Shown here: positions 12,234 through 18,993 of the stretch, in pieces
How positions within the stretch are numbered: position 1 is the stretch's first letter
Layout: every line of letters begins with the position of its first letter
IMG/VR virus record: IMGVR_UViG_3300034066_000777
Location: 1-28,773 of that record
DNA length: 28,773 nucleotides
Direction: 5' to 3' (one strand)
DNA from: a virus
The notes under the pieces: model-generated
Told to the model about the DNA's origin: nothing
The model's database searches: none
The model's input: only the letters and a program-made list of their open reading frames with translations
Program-made: the position numbers and the translations under genes

Positions 12234-14126
12234 CTACCAGTTGCTGACAAATCCAGGGCCGGCCGCAGCTGGTGCCGCAGGCTGTTGCCTTGATCTTAGC
12301 GGGGCTTTACGTTGTGACTCCGTTGGCTTTTCTAGTCGTTTCTCAAGCTGATCCCAAATAGTTCTGCGGTCGTATCGCTGATACATGCGATTCAACGCTG
12401 CGTATGCGTAAACCAAACAATCAAGCGCTTCGTTGCGTCGGCTGGCTGGCAACACCCACTCGCGAACCGGAAAGCCATTGCGGTTAGTGCGCAACACCTG
12501 CTTCTCGGCTGTCAGTTGCTCAAAGTATTCGCTTGTCGTTTGCATGTGAAAGTGCAAATATCCCGGGCCCGGTTCGTTGTGCTTAAGCCGACCAAACAGC
12601 GTAGTTTTAACTGTGTCGCTGCCCACCGGCCACACCTGCGCGCCTCGCTTTAGGGTTTGCCCCTTGGCATTGATGTCCACCTTGCCCGGTTTGCCAATCG
12701 GCGGCTTGCCGCGTTGGCTTTGACCCTTGATCGCAATCACGCCCTGGCGCCCACGCTCGCGCGCGTACTGGTAGACCTCCGCGGTGAAGTGGCCGCCCGA
12801 GTCGATCGCCACCACATCGGGGCGCAGCTTGTTGCCCAGCACATGCGGCCACTCGCGCAGCGCAACCTCATCCAGCTGCTTCCACAACTCCGGCCGGCTC
12901 GGGTCGCCGTAGATCTCCTGATGATCCAGCAGCCAGCCTTCCTCCTCGCGGCCCCATGCCCACACGCTGATTGCCAGCCGGTTGTCCTGCACGTCCACGC
13001 CCACCGTCAGCGCCAGCGCGTTCTCCGGCACCACCGCCGGCTCGAAGTGCTCGCACCGCTTTAGCAGGCCATCGGCGCTCACCTTGCTGGCGTAATCCTC
13101 CTCCCATGTTTCACCCAGCACGGTGTTGACCCAGGTCTTCAGCCGCGGCGCATCGCCCTTAGCGCGCAGGAAATCCTCCACCACCTCAACCCAGGACTTC
13201 CAGCCCAACGGGCTGTACAGCGATGAGATGTGGAACCCTGCCGTCTTGCCATCACCCGGCGCTGTTGCCCGCCACTCGCCAGCCTCCAGCATCCTCGTCT
13301 TGTGGCTTTCTGAGAACCGTTCGCAACAAGCCTCGCATTCATACTGCACCGTGCTCGGGTCGTTGTCCTGGTACTTCAGTTGCGTCCACTTCAGCCATTG
13401 CATCCCACCGCAGCAAGGGCACGGCACGAAATACCGCCGCTGATCGCTTAGCAGATACTCCGCCTCGATCCGGCTGAAGTCCTTCACCGTTGGCGTGCTG
13501 GTCATGAAGATCTTGCGCCGGCTGAACGTCGTGCTCCGCCGCTCGGCCAGCGTCACCGGGTCGCCTTCGCCATCCACATCGCCAGGGAATGCATCCACTT
13601 CGTCAAGAAAGATGTAGCGGCATGGCGTCGAGCGCAGACCCGTTGCGCTGTTGGCCCCGGTGAGGATCATCATCCCGCCGGGGAACTCCTTTGAAAACAT
13701 CGTGTTGCCTGAGTCCCGCGAGCGGGCGGGGGCGATCTTCTCCGAGAGCACCGGCGTGTCGGTGATCAGGCTTTCCAGTCGCTGCTTGCTTAGCCGCTTC
13801 GCCATGTCCACGGTCGGCTGCACCATCAGCATCGGCCCCGGCGCGTGATCGATCACATACCCCAGCCAGTTGGCGCCGCCCTCTGTCTTCCCCAGCTGCG
13901 CGCCAGCCATAAGCACCACCCGCTGCACCGGGCTGGTGGTGCTCAAGCAGTCCATCACCTCGCGCAGGTACGGCGTGCGATCAGTGCGCCACGGCCCAGG
14001 CTCCGCGCTGGCCTTGCCTGACAGCACCCGATGGCTGTCAGCCCACTGGCTCACCGTCAGGTCCGCTTCAAACCGCAGCGCCTCGCGGCATACCTGCAGC
14101 AGATCGTCAATCGCTGATGGCACCAC
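12234..14126 (-). CDS. Large terminase subunit, lambda gpA family
   Basis: This 630-residue packaging motor subunit has an N-terminal ATPase with the GpA-type Walker A AGAQLGKT at 74-81, a Walker B ending in FLDEVDAFPGD (D175-E176), and coupling motif residues before MTSTPTVKDFSRIE. A zinc-ribbon-like pair of CxxC motifs follows (CPCCGGMQW at about 237, CEACCERF at about 264). The C-terminal nuclease has the acidic GVDVQDNRL and VAIDSGGH segments expected for the RNase H-like fold. GpA-type terminases act with a small subunit at cos sites. It overlaps the small-subunit gene by 20 bases, and the gpW-like gene starts 3 bases after its stop. It is very close to lambda gpA (641) in length. Confidence 0.95.
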   Translation of the reverse strand: MVPSAIDDLLQVCREALRFEADLTVSQWADSHRVLSGKASAEPGPWRTDRTPYLREVMDCLSTTSPVQRVVLMAGAQLGKTEGGANWLGYVIDHAPGPMLMVQPTVDMAKRLSKQRLESLITDTPVLSEKIAPARSRDSGNTMFSKEFPGGMMILTGANSATGLRSTPCRYIFLDEVDAFPGDVDGEGDPVTLAERRSTTFSRRKIFMTSTPTVKDFSRIEAEYLLSDQRRYFVPCPCCGGMQWLKWTQLKYQDNDPSTVQYECEACCERFSESHKTRMLEAGEWRATAPGDGKTAGFHISSLYSPLGWKSWVEVVEDFLRAKGDAPRLKTWVNTVLGETWEEDYASKVSADGLLKRCEHFEPAVVPENALALTVGVDVQDNRLAISVWAWGREEEGWLLDHQEIYGDPSRPELWKQLDEVALREWPHVLGNKLRPDVVAIDSGGHFTAEVYQYARERGRQGVIAIKGQSQRGKPPIGKPGKVDINAKGQTLKRGAQVWPVGSDTVKTTLFGRLKHNEPGPGYLHFHMQTTSEYFEQLTAEKQVLRTNRNGFPVREWVLPASRRNEALDCLVYAYAALNRMYQRYDRRTIWDQLEKRLEKPTESQRKAPLRSRQQPAAPAAAGPGFVSNW

Positions 14127-14625
14127 TCAAGCCCTCCAAGGCTTGCCCGATCTCCTTCAGCAACATCGCGTGGATCTTTGCCTGATCGGTCTCGGCCGCC
14201 ACGATAGGCGCCACACGGTCCGGAATGGTGCGCAGCGCATCGCGCACCGCCATGTGCAGCTTGGCCAGCCGCATCTTCAGCTCGTTCTTATCCACCAGCT
14301 TGGCGCTGCGCTGGTCAAACTCCAGCCGCGTCAACCGCGCCGCATACGCCTCCCTAATTGCCCGTGACTGCGCGAACGATGGGATCGCCGCGGCCTGATT
14401 CTGCTGCTGCACCAGTGCCTGGTCAATTGCAGGGGCACCACCTCGGCCCCCACGGTCGGGGCTCTTAGCCGCGGCCACCTGCCGGTCCAGTGCTTGCGGA
14501 TCCACCACCACCCACAGCCGGCCATCCTTGCGCATCGCATCGCTGCTGAACCGGCCCTGGCCAGCCCACTTGCTCAGCTGCGTGTACTCAACCTTCCGGT
14601 CCTCGGCGTACTTGCGCAGGTTCAT
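14107..14625 (-). CDS. Small terminase subunit (Nu1-like)
   Basis: The protein has 172 residues. Residues 1-45 form a winged-HTH-like DNA-binding domain (LRKYAEDRKVEYTQLSKWA, then DGRLWVVVDPQAL). Residues 85-165 form a long charged helix region (AIREAYAARLTRLEFDQRSA, KLVDKNELKMRL) that ends with DALRTIPDRVAP, a signature of Nu1-type small subunits. It binds the packaging site and recruits the large subunit. It overlaps the large subunit gene by 20 bases and the methyltransferase stop by 4. Length is close to lambda Nu1 (181). Confidence 0.88.
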   Translation of the reverse strand: MNLRKYAEDRKVEYTQLSKWAGQGRFSSDAMRKDGRLWVVVDPQALDRQVAAAKSPDRGGRGGAPAIDQALVQQQNQAAAIPSFAQSRAIREAYAARLTRLEFDQRSAKLVDKNELKMRLAKLHMAVRDALRTIPDRVAPIVAAETDQAKIHAMLLKEIGQALEGLSGAISD

Positions 14626-15851
14626 GCGTCAGCCGGGAACGGTTCACCGGTCGCTTCCAGCTTGGCCGTCTTGCCCGTGAACTGCTGCCACCGCTTCACG
14701 ATCACGTCGCAGTAGCGCGGGTCCAGTTCCATCAGGCGGGCCTGGCGGGCGGTCTTCTCGCAGGCGATCAGGGTGCTGCCGGAGCCGCCGAACAGGTCGA
14801 GCACCAGCGCGCCGCGGTTAGTGGTCTTGTCCAGCGCCTCCTCGGGCAGTGCGACGGGCTTTTGTGTCGGGTGGACGTAGGTCGAAGCGCCGTCTTTGTT
14901 AATCGTCCACACCGAGCCGATGCGCTTGCCGCAAAGCTCTGCGCCGCGGTTCCACACCAGCGCAACTTCGTAATCGCTTGAGAAGGTTTTTGTCAGGTCG
15001 CCCATGCCGCCGCCGGGCTTGTGCCAGATCACGATGTTCGTGGGGTAGCCAAAGCCATCGAACAACTCGATCCACTTCGTCTGAACCTTCCAGCTGGTCC
15101 AGATGAATACCCACCCAGTCGAGTACGCCTCGACAATCGGAGCGATGTCCAAGAACTGGTCATCGTTGGCAAGCACGTCGAACTTGTCTGCGCCATCTCT
15201 CCAGTTGGACTGGTACTCAACTCCATACGGCGGATCGGTGAACACCATCTCAGCCTTCTTGCCATCCATCAACCGCTTTACCTCGGTCAGCGATGTGCTA
15301 TCCCCGCACATCACCCGATGCTTTCCCAGCAGCCACACGTCCCCAGGCTTGGTGACGGGATCGGCTTGGGGCTCCGGCACCGCATCAGCATCGGCATGCT
15401 CCGGCGGCAACTCCTCGATCTCGGGCAGCAGGTCCGCCAGCTCGTCATCGCTAAAGCCGATCAGGCTTAGGTCGAAGTCCTGCTCCGCCAGGTGCTGCAG
15501 CTCGCCCCGCAGCAGGTCGGTGTCCCATCCAGCGTTCAGCGCCAGCTGGTTGTCCGCAAGGATGTAAGCCTTGCGCTGCCGGTCACTCAGATGGTCAAGC
15601 ACCACCACCGGCACCGTCCGCAACCCCAGCCCCTGCGCGGCCGTCAGCCGGCCATGCCCGGCGATGATCCCGTCGTTGCTGTCTACCAGGATCGGGTTGG
15701 TAAAACCAAACTCCACGATCGACGCTGCGATCTGCGCCACCTGCTCAGCACTGTGCGTCCGCGCGTTGCGCTCGTAAGGCTGAAGCCGATCCACCGGCCA
15801 CAGCTCGATGCGCTTGGCCATTGTGATTGTCAATCCAGGATCAGCTGTCAT
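14622..15851 (-). CDS. ParB-domain DNA methyltransferase
   Basis: This is a 409-residue fusion. Residues 12-110 are a ParB/Srx-like domain (LQPYERNARTHSAEQVAQIA, DGIIAGHGRLTAA). Residues 165-395 are an amino-methyltransferase with motif IV DPPY at 206-209, followed by the SAM-binding motif DLFGGSGST at 352-360, the order of beta-class adenine-N6 or cytosine-N4 enzymes. Phages use such orphan enzymes to mark their own DNA against host restriction. No endonuclease partner is visible. It is directly coupled to the small terminase gene, so it is expressed with the packaging genes. An internal ATG at 15821 (MAKRIELWPVDRL) is an equally plausible start because neither has a clear SD. Target specificity cannot be read from sequence. 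Confidence 0.93.
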   Translation of the reverse strand: MTADPGLTITMAKRIELWPVDRLQPYERNARTHSAEQVAQIAASIVEFGFTNPILVDSNDGIIAGHGRLTAAQGLGLRTVPVVVLDHLSDRQRKAYILADNQLALNAGWDTDLLRGELQHLAEQDFDLSLIGFSDDELADLLPEIEELPPEHADADAVPEPQADPVTKPGDVWLLGKHRVMCGDSTSLTEVKRLMDGKKAEMVFTDPPYGVEYQSNWRDGADKFDVLANDDQFLDIAPIVEAYSTGWVFIWTSWKVQTKWIELFDGFGYPTNIVIWHKPGGGMGDLTKTFSSDYEVALVWNRGAELCGKRIGSVWTINKDGASTYVHPTQKPVALPEEALDKTTNRGALVLDLFGGSGSTLIACEKTARQARLMELDPRYCDVIVKRWQQFTGKTAKLEATGEPFPADA

Positions 15852-15894
15852 GCGTTATTGAGAACTTGTTGCAATAGGGCGGTTTGAATTTTCT

Positions 15895-15978
15895 CACGCT
15901 AGCCAAAGCGTGCGCGATTGGACGACCCGCAGGCTTTGGGCCAGGAAGGACCCGCAGAGGGGGGTGGAGGGGTCTATC
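15895..15978. other. Candidate cos/packaging region
   Basis: This non-coding stretch between the Z-like gene and the methyltransferase contains two copies of GACCCGCAG (15924-15932 and 15949-15957, 25 bases apart), an inverted pair CCAAAGC/GCTTTGG (15903-15909 and 15933-15939), and a G-rich run AGAGGGGGGTGGAGGGGTCT (15956-15975). The adjacent downstream genes include a Nu1/gpA-type terminase, which cuts at cos sites normally located just upstream of the small subunit. The arrangement makes this a candidate, but the small subunit gene is 1.2 kb away. No cohesive-end sequence can be proven from the sequence alone. Confidence 0.35.
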
Positions 15979-16642
15979 GAGCCGATGCCAAGGCCCGCTC
16001 AAGGCTGCTCAGCAGGTACGCGCCGAATCGCCGGTCAATCACCTTCTGCCCGATCTGCTCCATGGGGAACATCTTGCCGTAGGTGGCGCGGGGCACGGCA
16101 ATGAACAGGGGCCTAAGCTTGCCCCTTGCTGTTCGCTGGTAGACACCAGGAGGGCGGCCTGCGCCCTCTGGGCGGCCCAGGAAGACGCTGTTACGCCCCC
16201 TCGAGCCTATCTGCCCCTCAATGCGCTTAAGCGTGGCCAGGGAGACGTTGCCAGCGGCTGTCAGGTTGATGGCAGCAGGCACCAGCACCGAACCCTTGGG
16301 CATGGTCGCCTCTGCCTGAGCGATAAAGCGTCGCTCGACTGGCTTCTGCCCACGCACCCCGCCACTGATCAGGGTGCGCAGGTATCGAGCACGCCGACGC
16401 TCGGCATACACCTCAGCCGTTAGGTCGCGCTTGCTGGATCGATTGACCAGAAACGCACGCTGGGTGAAGGGGACAGGGTTCTTGAAGTATTGACGAGTGG
16501 CACCGTTGAGCGCAAGGCGCGTGTCAAACGCGGTCTTGTTTAGCGCCTGACTGATGGCGAACGGAAGCTGCCTGGTCATGGCATCCGTCCACCGGATAGC
16601 CATGGGCAGCTCTGACCTGATGTCGAGGGTGATGGTTGCCAT
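15974..16642 (-). CDS. Probable minor tail/virion protein, gpZ-like, displaced
   Basis: This 222-residue basic protein has LPFAISQALNKTAFDTRLAL near the start, followed by FKNPVPFTQRAF and YLRTLISGGVRGQKPVERRF. The helical start and the beta-rich, arginine-rich body recall lambda minor tail protein Z and HK97 gp10-type neck proteins, which also begin with an A..RALN.TA helix. The Z position in the tail cluster is taken by another gene, so this may be the same function moved to the far side of the packaging genes. The resemblance is by pattern only. It could equally be an unrelated virion or DNA-binding protein. The ATG has no obvious SD. Confidence 0.5.
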   Translation of the reverse strand: MATITLDIRSELPMAIRWTDAMTRQLPFAISQALNKTAFDTRLALNGATRQYFKNPVPFTQRAFLVNRSSKRDLTAEVYAERRRARYLRTLISGGVRGQKPVERRFIAQAEATMPKGSVLVPAAINLTAAGNVSLATLKRIEGQIGSRGRNSVFLGRPEGAGRPPGVYQRTARGKLRPLFIAVPRATYGKMFPMEQIGQKVIDRRFGAYLLSSLERALASAR

Positions 16643-16785
16643 GTGGTCAGGGTAGGCCGGTTGAAAGGCGAAGCCGTGAGACTGGCTGTTCCTATGTTCC
16701 CATCGTTCCGACCCTCCTTAGAGAGTTTCCCTACACCCCCTATACCCCCCCTATATACCCTATATAAATATATATATATAATAAG

Positions 16786-16809
16786 TAGGAACATAGGAAC
16801 ATAGGAACA
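16786..16809. repeat. Three tandem 8-bp repeats (TAGGAACA)
   Basis: The sequence is exactly periodic over 24 bases with no mismatch. Inverted copies of the same unit lie at 16687-16702, 16834-16841 and (direct again) at 16857-16864, so at least seven good copies occur within 180 bases. I noticed no such cluster elsewhere in the window. It is likely a protein-binding array. Confidence 0.85.
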
Positions 16810-16831
16810 TCGCTTGGCACGCAAGGGGTCT

Positions 16832-16866
16832 GGTGTTCCTAGCAGCCATTGCCAGATAGGAACACC
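16832..16866. repeat. Perfect 10-bp inverted repeat with 15-base loop
   Basis: GGTGTTCCTA and TAGGAACACC are exact complements separated by 15 bases. Each contains the 8-base unit of the tandem array. It starts 19 bases after the stop codon of the primase gene. No T-run follows on the minus strand, so a classical terminator is unlikely. A binding site for the replication protein, or a hairpin, fits better. Confidence 0.6.
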
Positions 16867-16884
16867 AACGGGACCGGGCCAGTC

Positions 16885-18993
16885 TCAAAAGTAGACCCAT
16901 TTGAGAACGCCATCGACTCTTTGGCGCCTTCTTTGGTAACCCAAGTCCCGCAGGATGCTGCCCACCTGCATCTGATCGGATCGCGTCTGGCGCTCCATCG
17001 GCTTAAAGATGGCATCGGCCAACAGCAGGTCAGTAGTGATCTCCTTGGCCTTGTTGCGCGGAGCGATCAGCCAAGCCTCAATCGGTGCACGCCATGGAGA
17101 CTCCACCAAGTAATCCTCGTTCTGTTCGGCCACCATGGCTTCCTGTTCGGCGGTCAGGACGCTGGGCTCGCCATTGCGATAGGCGGCCACCGCTGCCGAC
17201 CAGATTGCATCGCGCTCCATGTACAGGGCGGGAACGTCAATAGGCTTCTGCAGGGTGCAGGTAACGGGTATGACCCAAAACCGGCGGTTGCCCGTGTCAT
17301 CTACCAGAAAACCACTGTCGCGGTTCGTAGAGCCGACGATGACGCACCGCCTAGGGAAGGCTTCAGTGGCCTTGCCATAGGGCACTCGGAACATGTCCGT
17401 GGACTGGCTAAGGAACGCCTTGACTTGCCCGGCGTGTTTTTTGTTGGTGACGTGATCGAGTTCGGCCCACTCCATAATCCAAGAGCGGTGTAGGACCATC
17501 AGGTCATCTTTGGAACTGATGTCACGAAGGGCATCGGAAAAGAAATCGCCGCCTAAAGCTGCCCAAAACGAAGATTTGCGTGCCCCCTGCTCACCCATTA
17601 AGACAGTGGCATTGTCGTGTTTGCTGCCGGGTTCGTAAATCCGACGCACTGCTGCGACAAGAGTGCAGCGAATCATGTGATCAAAAAGGGTGGGCTCGGT
17701 CTGTTCGGCGTCACCTGGGCGAAGATAAGTTGAAGCTATGCGATCAATGTATGTGGGTTGAACATGATTAGCGACGTGATCAAGATAGTTGCGAATAGGG
17801 TCATAAGGATTAGATTTGGCGACTTTGACAAGGCAGTCAAGCGCAACCTCCTTCGAAATTTTGCCGCCATTTTCGGCAATTTCTAGATAGTAATGCTCTG
17901 CATTTTCAAGGACTATGTAGTCATTGCCAGGGTTGTTCCGTTCAATTTGCTGGGTGAAAATGTTGTATCTAAGAGCGTTGGCGTCTTTAAGTTGCATCAA
18001 CAGTTCGTTGGCTTCTAGTTTCTTGAGAGGCTGAAGGTCTTGGGTGATTTTTATTGGATCCGACGCCTGTACCACCTGCGGGACTTGGCGAGTAGGTTTG
18101 TAACCATACTGTTGAGCCAAATACCAAAATGTGCCGGCATTGACTGAATGGCAATTGCTGCCAGCGACCTGCTCAACTTCGGCAAATAAGGGACTATGAC
18201 GCTTCATCATGGCGATGGCGTCTTCGCTCGATGCGTTGGCCTCATGGCAGGCATCCATGAGGCCCCACATAAGGTTGCGAAAGAGGGGGTATTGTTTTGT
18301 TTTTGGTATTGCAGCGGGGATACAATCTAGGGCCTCTTGTATTTCAAAAAGCGTGCGGGTTTTATAATTTGCAAATTGCCTCGCCTGTACCAAATTATTG
18401 TGTGTGGGTTCATCGGGCAAGCATTCATCAAGTTGTGCGTAGCTGTAATAACTGTCGGATTGATGAATGATGGCCACCTGATCGCCTTGCGCGCCATCGG
18501 TGTCGATGTGATAGGTGCCAGGAAGGCGCATCACGCGCGATGGATTTTTAAGCGTGCGATCGGCATCAGCGTGCTCAAGAAGACGACGCTGAAGGGAGCG
18601 CCATTGATCGGTTGTGATTGGATCGGTAAACGCCCAATAGGTGTGGATGGATTTGCCGCCAGTATCGACTTGGACCGTTGGCTCTGGAAGGCCAAGGTCT
18701 TTCCATGCGGCTACCTGCCAGTCTTTGGGGCGATCATCCCATTCACAAAAGATGGCATGACAGGAATTGATTTCTGAGTCGGTGTCACCGCCTGTGTTGA
18801 TGACTAGGTAGACGCCGCGGCCTTCGGCTTGCCACTCTTCAACAATTTGGCGGCTTGGGGCGCCCTTCCGACCTGCGTCACCTGATTTAAAAGGATGGCC
18901 CGATGGAAAGAAAGCCCTGAGGCGTGCGGCTTTGGGTGGCTTGCGAAGGATCTTGATGAACTGGCGAGCGGCGTTGAAATCAATAGGTTTCAT
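16885..18993 (-). CDS. VapE-type primase-helicase (replication initiator)
   Basis: This 702-residue two-part protein resembles archaeo-eukaryotic-type primases in its N-terminal half: IFCEWDD at 81-87, VDTGGKSIHTYW at 109-120, and DRTLKNPSRVMRLPGTYH at 145-162, the usual primase pattern of acidic pair, G-x-S-x-H-x-Y-W and R-L-P-G-T. The C-terminal half is a VapE/VirE-like ATPase: Walker A GEQGARKS at 467-474, Walker B IMEWAELD at 506-513, and GSTNRDSGFLVDDTGNRRFW at 554-573. Such proteins initiate phage replication by unwinding and priming. Its stop is 19 bases from the repeats of the candidate origin. Its ATG overlaps the stop of a small RHH gene (ATGA). Base composition is less GC-rich than the virion genes. 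Confidence 0.9.
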   Translation of the reverse strand: MKPIDFNAARQFIKILRKPPKAARLRAFFPSGHPFKSGDAGRKGAPSRQIVEEWQAEGRGVYLVINTGGDTDSEINSCHAIFCEWDDRPKDWQVAAWKDLGLPEPTVQVDTGGKSIHTYWAFTDPITTDQWRSLQRRLLEHADADRTLKNPSRVMRLPGTYHIDTDGAQGDQVAIIHQSDSYYSYAQLDECLPDEPTHNNLVQARQFANYKTRTLFEIQEALDCIPAAIPKTKQYPLFRNLMWGLMDACHEANASSEDAIAMMKRHSPLFAEVEQVAGSNCHSVNAGTFWYLAQQYGYKPTRQVPQVVQASDPIKITQDLQPLKKLEANELLMQLKDANALRYNIFTQQIERNNPGNDYIVLENAEHYYLEIAENGGKISKEVALDCLVKVAKSNPYDPIRNYLDHVANHVQPTYIDRIASTYLRPGDAEQTEPTLFDHMIRCTLVAAVRRIYEPGSKHDNATVLMGEQGARKSSFWAALGGDFFSDALRDISSKDDLMVLHRSWIMEWAELDHVTNKKHAGQVKAFLSQSTDMFRVPYGKATEAFPRRCVIVGSTNRDSGFLVDDTGNRRFWVIPVTCTLQKPIDVPALYMERDAIWSAAVAAYRNGEPSVLTAEQEAMVAEQNEDYLVESPWRAPIEAWLIAPRNKAKEITTDLLLADAIFKPMERQTRSDQMQVGSILRDLGYQRRRQRVDGVLKWVYF

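Follow-up and report, generated by a model that had tools for sequence, protein, structure and literature searches.

Does the repeat-rich gap beside the primase-helicase gene of this virus serve as its replication origin and, if so, how would the neighbouring protein recognise the repeats? The window, i.e. the whole 28,773-base stretch of DNA that was analysed, is one entire IMG/VR virus record, of record class linear and perhaps incomplete. The 242-bp interval under study (16643-16884) is the entire gap between a minor-tail gene and a VapE gene, and is non-coding by position. An earlier note, made from the sequence, had proposed it as a candidate phage origin.

Gene neighbourhood and repeat array

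Genes for the terminase large and small subunits, a ParB_N methyltransferase and a minor tail protein occupy 12234-16642 (-); past 21.5 kb, the + strand carries genes for recombination (exonuclease VIII, RecT-like). Because both terminase subunits and a minor tail protein are present, we consider the window to be a phage and not a satellite, SaPI itself having no terminase or structural genes of its own. The DNA methyltransferase (14622-15851, -; N6/N4 type), beside the terminase genes, carries an N-terminal ParB_N domain. We take the virus to be a temperate-type virus of freshwater picocyanobacteria (Synechococcus/Cyanobium). The host assignment is based on two relatives, Synechococcus phage S-LBS1 and L257, which is contig BJHE01000012.1 from a bin of Cyanobium sp.; L257 is the sole relative found in a genome-collection scan and points to the host group.

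Perfect copies of TAGGAACA occur six times in the 28.8-kb window, all of them within 16643-16884, against 0.31 expected on average and a maximum of 2 in 100 dinucleotide shuffles. Outward from the VapE gene, an inverted pair is followed by a trio, an A/T run, a G-rich tract, a conserved box and an opposite trio, both trios being directed away from the A/T run:

15974-16642, - strand: minor-tail gene
16677-16686 and 16878-16887: outer 10-bp perfect inverted repeat around the entire array (TGAGACTGGC / GCCAGTCTCA)
16687-16694 (-), 16786-16793 (+), 16794-16801 (+), 16802-16809 (+), 16834-16841 (-), 16857-16864 (+): perfect TAGGAACA copies
16687-16711, - strand: distal trio in opposite orientation, made of 16687-16694, 16695-16702 (1 mismatch) and 16704-16711 (TCGGAACG)
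16713-16731, - strand: conserved non-iteron box GGGAAACTCTCTAAGGAGG, between the G-rich tract and the distal trio
16728-16760, - strand: G-rich tract, between the A/T run and the distal trio
16761-16784: A/T-only run of 24 bp, candidate unwinding element
16786-16809, + strand: gene-side trio of three perfect tandem TAGGAACA copies, period 8
16831-16867: inverted iteron pair on the gene side, 16834-16841 (-) and 16857-16864 (+), also present in relatives

The perfect tandem trio and the almost pure TA tract between the two sets are as the earlier note had described them. The inverted set that it had placed opposite does exist, but two of its copies are imperfect and the set has a period of 8 then 9 instead of a regular 8; the third (16704-16711, -) reads TNGG-AAC and is backed by the trios of relatives at the matching place. 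The inverted repeat holding two further copies measures 11 bp (16831-16841/16857-16867) and not 10, and the array indeed adjoins the VapE gene, at 20 bp instead of 19 from the stop (16885) to the nearest copy.

Several non-iteron elements recur in relatives. The G-rich side is present in 55 of 86, and variants of the box, CTC(T/C)NTAAG, occur at 32/86 loci, against 2.0 in shuffles and none of 79 upstream controls; this box is a possible priming or loading site. TGAGAC is likewise enriched (29/86 relatives, 11.2 in shuffles, 9/79 upstream controls). A CCTTGC dyad suspected in relatives between the first pair and the trio was not above the upstream control and was discarded. The array region gave no RNA family match, and no promoter-like site was found in it.

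The adjoining VapE-type gene and its relatives

The gene next to the array encodes a three-part protein, with the following features:

16885-18993, - strand: probable initiator gene, 702 aa, with an AEP-type PrimPol, a VapE (SF3-type) helicase and a C-terminal winged helix
16888-17100, - strand: codons of the modelled C-terminal winged helix (residues 632-702), proposed iteron reader
16903-16905, - strand: codon of Leu697, wing strand 2, tracking bases x1x2 of the iteron (defined below)
16918-16920, - strand: codon of Arg692, wing strand 1, tracking base x3
16930-16932, - strand: codon of Arg688, wing strand 1, tracking base N

Its product matched the Pfam VapE-like_dom (E 4e-66), while residues 12-187 matched the crystal structure of the S-2L PrimPol AEP domain (6zp9, E 7e-34) and residues 439-581 matched 7pds, 'PriRep1 with dsDNA' (E 1.5e-25 with the single sequence, 4.7e-36 with a profile). 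Foldseek also returned 6zp9 and PriRep1 7pds (the latter with E 5e-7). The previous reading of the gene as a VapE-type primase-helicase is thus borne out, with the PriRep1 structure as its kin. An AlphaFold2 model was built from 39 sequences, of which only the N- and C-terminal domains were used because confidence in the helicase core was low. In the C-terminal domain it predicts helices at 635-643, 654-660 and 671-683 and strands at 688-693 and 696-701, with pLDDT of about 75-92; residues 668-674 are invariant in the alignment. Across VapE relatives, three primase modules were seen joined to the common helicase and tail, namely the S-2L-type AEP, Pfam Prim-Pol (in S-LBS1) and Toprim (in Pseudomonas U5).

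The array recurs with this gene. The 24-mer TAGGAACAx3 was found in 9 of 2.9 million viral contigs, and 9/9 are contigs that the VapE search also returned as relatives. By eye, 80 retrieved relatives have the same layout in the gap behind VapE, with an iteron sequence that differs by lineage, and this type of array follows VapE in nearly all inspected relatives (cyanophage loci, S-LBS1, and Acidovorax, Pseudomonas and Marinobacter phages), most iteron copies of one locus changing together between lineages. In close relatives, the most frequent 7-mer of the gap is present 4-8 times, compared with 2-3 times in shuffles and in the remaining tiles of the locus; in the group matching residues 292-702 this simple test was often not above chance, because the copies differ. 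An automatic call based on an explicit core (T-N-R-G-xyz, both orientations, at least 4 copies) identified iterons at 72 of the 105 cyanophage loci, whereas about 5% of shuffles gave a call; 33/105 were left without a clear one. This core and orientation requirement replaced an expectation-maximisation motif search, dropped after drifting onto AT and G runs; an earlier core pattern had slipped onto the AGGT of the following copy, giving GTA and GTT as words, and the corrected core led to the same conclusions. The candidate origin is strengthened accordingly by the called loci and by the close homologues, which carry the array where the earlier note had held that missing repeats would speak against an origin.

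Among remote relatives, gap repeats exceeded shuffles in Acidovorax ACF1, Enterococcus phiFL4A, Corynebacterium StAB, Pseudomonas U5, Marinobacter PS3 and S-LBS1, and were borderline in Brevibacillus Emery; in S-2L, Javan100, VarioGold and ep3, the gap repeats examined with the 7-mer test were not above chance. ACF1 bears the TAGGAAC word too, with a helicase about 28-30% identical. In the linear S-LBS1 record (MG271909.1, L090) the last 500 bases repeat part of the origin array, which may reflect either overlapping ends in the assembly or a genuine duplication. In L064, L070, L061 and S-LBS1, an inverted iteron pair and then about seven T lie just past the VapE stop, and this first pair may double as an intrinsic terminator.

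Covariation of wing residues with iteron bases

The majority iterons of 38 non-redundant clusters share the general form AGGT-N-GG-x1x2x3, which is ATAGGAACA in the window. Some 200 variable protein columns (residues 300-702) were compared with the iteron bases over locus pairs, with regression on helicase identity and label permutation as a control. Base N was best tracked by residue 688 (partial r 0.55; largest permuted maximum 0.39), x1 by 697 (0.58; permuted maximum 0.26), x2 also by 697 (0.46; 0.39) and x3 by 692 (0.50-0.52; permuted maximum 0.38; next column 0.18-0.25). Taken jointly, x1x2 gave a partial r of 0.628 with 697, against a permuted maximum of 0.376 in 2000 and 0.33 for the next column. 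At the flanking positions -3, +1, +2 and +3, no column rose above the permuted 95% level. All three residues fall within the predicted wing. The permutation values are optimistic, as the covariation was first spotted by inspection and then tested.

The contingency counts were 17, 2, 3, 16 for K688 and N=T (p 1e-5) and 10, 0, 1, 27 for R692 and x3=C (p 2e-8), both p values assuming independence of the clusters, an assumption that holds only in part. They were 7, 0, 1, 30 for Q697 and x1=C, 10, 1, 0, 27 for L697 and AA, and 18, 0, 0, 20 for R697 and (x1=G or x2=C), a combined rule set after seeing the data. The simpler rule that 697 reads x1 was dropped, Arg697 occurring with ACG/ACA besides GCA/GAC. 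On the helicase tree, which has 38 tips, the iteron word must have changed no fewer than 21 times. Independent pairs on separate, well-supported branches gave expected-to-opposite ratios of 5:0 for x3, 4:0 for Q697, 5:0 for L697 and 7:0 for the post hoc R697 rule; residue 688 gave about 3:0, with 8 pairs using all branches. Such pairs almost never contradict the covariation; they are few, and most rules fall short of 0.05 alone. The switch that comes closest to a natural experiment separates S-LBS1 from L095, whose helicase cores are 95% identical: the iteron goes from CAA in L095 (GGTTGGCAA, wing GGQQRW) to GCA in S-LBS1 (GGTTGGGCA/GGTTAGGCA, wing EGGRQW), with wing differences at residues 694, 696, 697 and 698.

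The 692 and 697 rules were fixed before two further scans, whereas the 688 rule was derived after the loci of those scans were visible, though not from them. Well-called loci outside the training set were L253, L257, L316 and L320 only. L316 combines the word AAC with Arg688, Arg692 and Leu697, L257 combines AAA with Lys688, Thr692 and Leu697, and L320 combines ACG with Lys688, Arg697 and a residue other than Arg at 692; the remote ACF1 combines AAC with Arg688, Arg692 and a new residue, Thr697. The 692 rule fits these four well-called new loci, and the 697 rule finds its named residue in L316, L257 and L320, Thr697 of ACF1 being allowed loosely. Only L316 and L320 are fully blind cases, the ACF1 array and tail and L257 having been seen earlier. 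L270, L275, L281, L292, L325 and L335 agree by eye, with a weak or wrong automatic call; in the new clades the automatic calls failed in places by returning GAG or CAC (L270, L273, L281-283, L300). L261 and L263 have another core, and the L295-L329 clade, with Trp692, Asn/Ser/Met697 and weak, mixed downstream repeats without a single word, lies outside the rules.

From one related virus to another, three amino acids of the tail shift in step with the sequence of the repeats, a pattern that suggests a protein-DNA code which can be read. We lean towards a compact code in VapE-type phage initiators, in which an invariant helix would read the conserved part of the iteron and residues 688, 692 and 697 would set its variable bases. 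Within this code, favoured as a whole to that same degree, the proposed pairs are Lys688 with T and Arg688 with A/G; Leu697 with AA, Gln697 with CA and Arg697 with (x1=G or x2=C); and Arg692 with x3=C.

Linkage could produce covariation of this kind: the gene end and the origin are neighbours and can therefore be moved together by recombination, which could inflate the signal without any recognition of bases by residues. The wing codons indeed lie within about 50 bp of the array edge, and the C-terminal columns as a group exceed the helicase columns (partial correlation 0.09 vs 0.004). However, single columns exceed their equally linked neighbours (0.63 vs 0.33 for 697; 0.52 vs 0.25 for 692 with x3), separate iteron bases pick separate residues, and the flanks +2 and +3 pick none. 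This contrast argues against linkage alone, which we regard as unlikely, and does not remove linkage itself.

Probable origin function and comparison with known replicons

We consider it highly probable, from the sequence comparisons above, that a picocyanobacterial temperate-type virus has its replication origin in the gap 16643-16884 and that the product of the adjacent gene initiates there. The predicted winged helix and the covariation point to the C-terminal domain as the part that would bind the iterons (AGGT-N-GG-xyz), the conserved AGGT-GG being read by the conserved helix (668-674) and the variable bases by the wing. As the trios point away from each other, two helicase hexamers would be loaded head to head, either side of the AT tract, which would melt, and the N-terminal AEP PrimPol domain would then prime. 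What the computation shows is the repeats, their retention next to the gene in relatives, the kinship of the protein, its predicted fold and the covariation of the three wing residues; that the protein binds the DNA and loads as two hexamers, that the tract melts and is primed, and that the gap works as an origin, we infer, the iteron recognition and head-to-head loading by analogy with SaPI and SCC elements. The GC-skew check proposed in the earlier note put the lowest point of the cumulative G-C curve at 15806, some 0.9 kb away from the array, despite same-strand genes on both sides; relatives have their minimum at varying positions, in many cases 0-2 kb or more downstream. We rejected this skew as proof of an origin, as it is too weak and only compatible with one.

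The array could instead be a site where the initiator controls or terminates transcription of the VapE operon. It does lie at the 3' end of the gene, its inverted pair could form a hairpin in the transcript, the seven T after the first pair of S-LBS1-like loci resemble an intrinsic terminator, and T6 runs occur in 20/86 loci, against 9.6 in shuffles. Yet no terminator-like site was found within the array of the window, and termination needs neither the tandem trios, nor the AT tract, nor the opposed trio; we judge this explanation improbable, although the first pair, and it alone, could serve termination as an additional role. Inverted repeats are bound by partition proteins, and the nearby protein (14622-15851) has both ParB_N and N6/N4 methyltransferase domains, but its use of the repeats as a partition or methylation site is most improbable: the array follows VapE even beside other genes, ep3 lacks repeats above chance in the gap examined despite the methylase that adjoins its VapE gene, and it is residues of the VapE wing with which the iteron bases covary.

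An origin at this gap would be of a type already known, because the array and gene fit the staphylococcal SaPI/SCC replicons, in which iterons that lie immediately past the helicase gene are recognised by the C-terminal domain of the helicase itself (PMC7581432). The window has a VapE/D5-class helicase homologous to known initiators, a primase domain fused to it, and, immediately downstream of that gene, iterons that face opposite ways on the two sides of an AT-rich stretch. SaPI systems (SaPI5-type PriRep, SaPIbov1 Rep) similarly combine a C-terminal origin-binding domain, short downstream repeats in opposite orientations and a fused or adjacent primase (PMC7581432, PMC9894130; 7pds). Here, by contrast, the gene is a cyanophage one with an S-2L-type PrimPol and the iteron, AGGTNGGxyz, is not staphylococcal; the likeness of the repeat layouts is one of outline. 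SaPI origins bear opposed repeats for two head-to-head hexamers (PMC9894130), so that direct and inverted use of one unit, which the earlier note called unusual, is not so within this class. Cch2 of SCCmec is also a D5/Primase_Cterm-class helicase whose isolated C-terminal domain binds direct repeats between the helicase gene and the next gene, a putative origin where inverted repeats are also present, but its iterons are three units of 5 nt (AAGTG) and its primase is a separate protein based on an A-family polymerase (PMC7581432).

Cyanophage S-2L shares the AEP/PrimPol and VapE helicase, its AEP domain being the best PDB match, and S-LBS1 has the same layout after its primase-polymerase gene, with a different N-terminus (Pfam Prim-Pol, PF09250) and iteron (TTGG-GCA); the S-LBS1 paper (PMC6157547) makes no mention of a replication origin or repeats. 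Geminiviruses offer an analogy of logic only: the iterons of related viruses differ and are read by the cognate Rep (PMC12548392), but Rep is an unrelated rolling-circle initiator of ssDNA plant viruses. In the open-licence literature subset searched, no description of these cyanophage origins was found; what could strike a specialist as new is the wing-iteron code.

Origins are unannotated in most of the environmental phages that carry PrimPol-VapE genes, and opposed AGGTNGG-type iterons directly downstream of the gene provide a rule for locating them from sequence. If the wing-iteron correspondence is true, origin specificity would be predictable from three residues, and the many natural switches would be a test of how an initiator and all of its binding sites change together. 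Repeated coordinated changes of the three residues and of most iteron copies would then allow the origin specificities of related viruses to drift apart, perhaps as an escape from cross-recognition or from parasitism of the origin.
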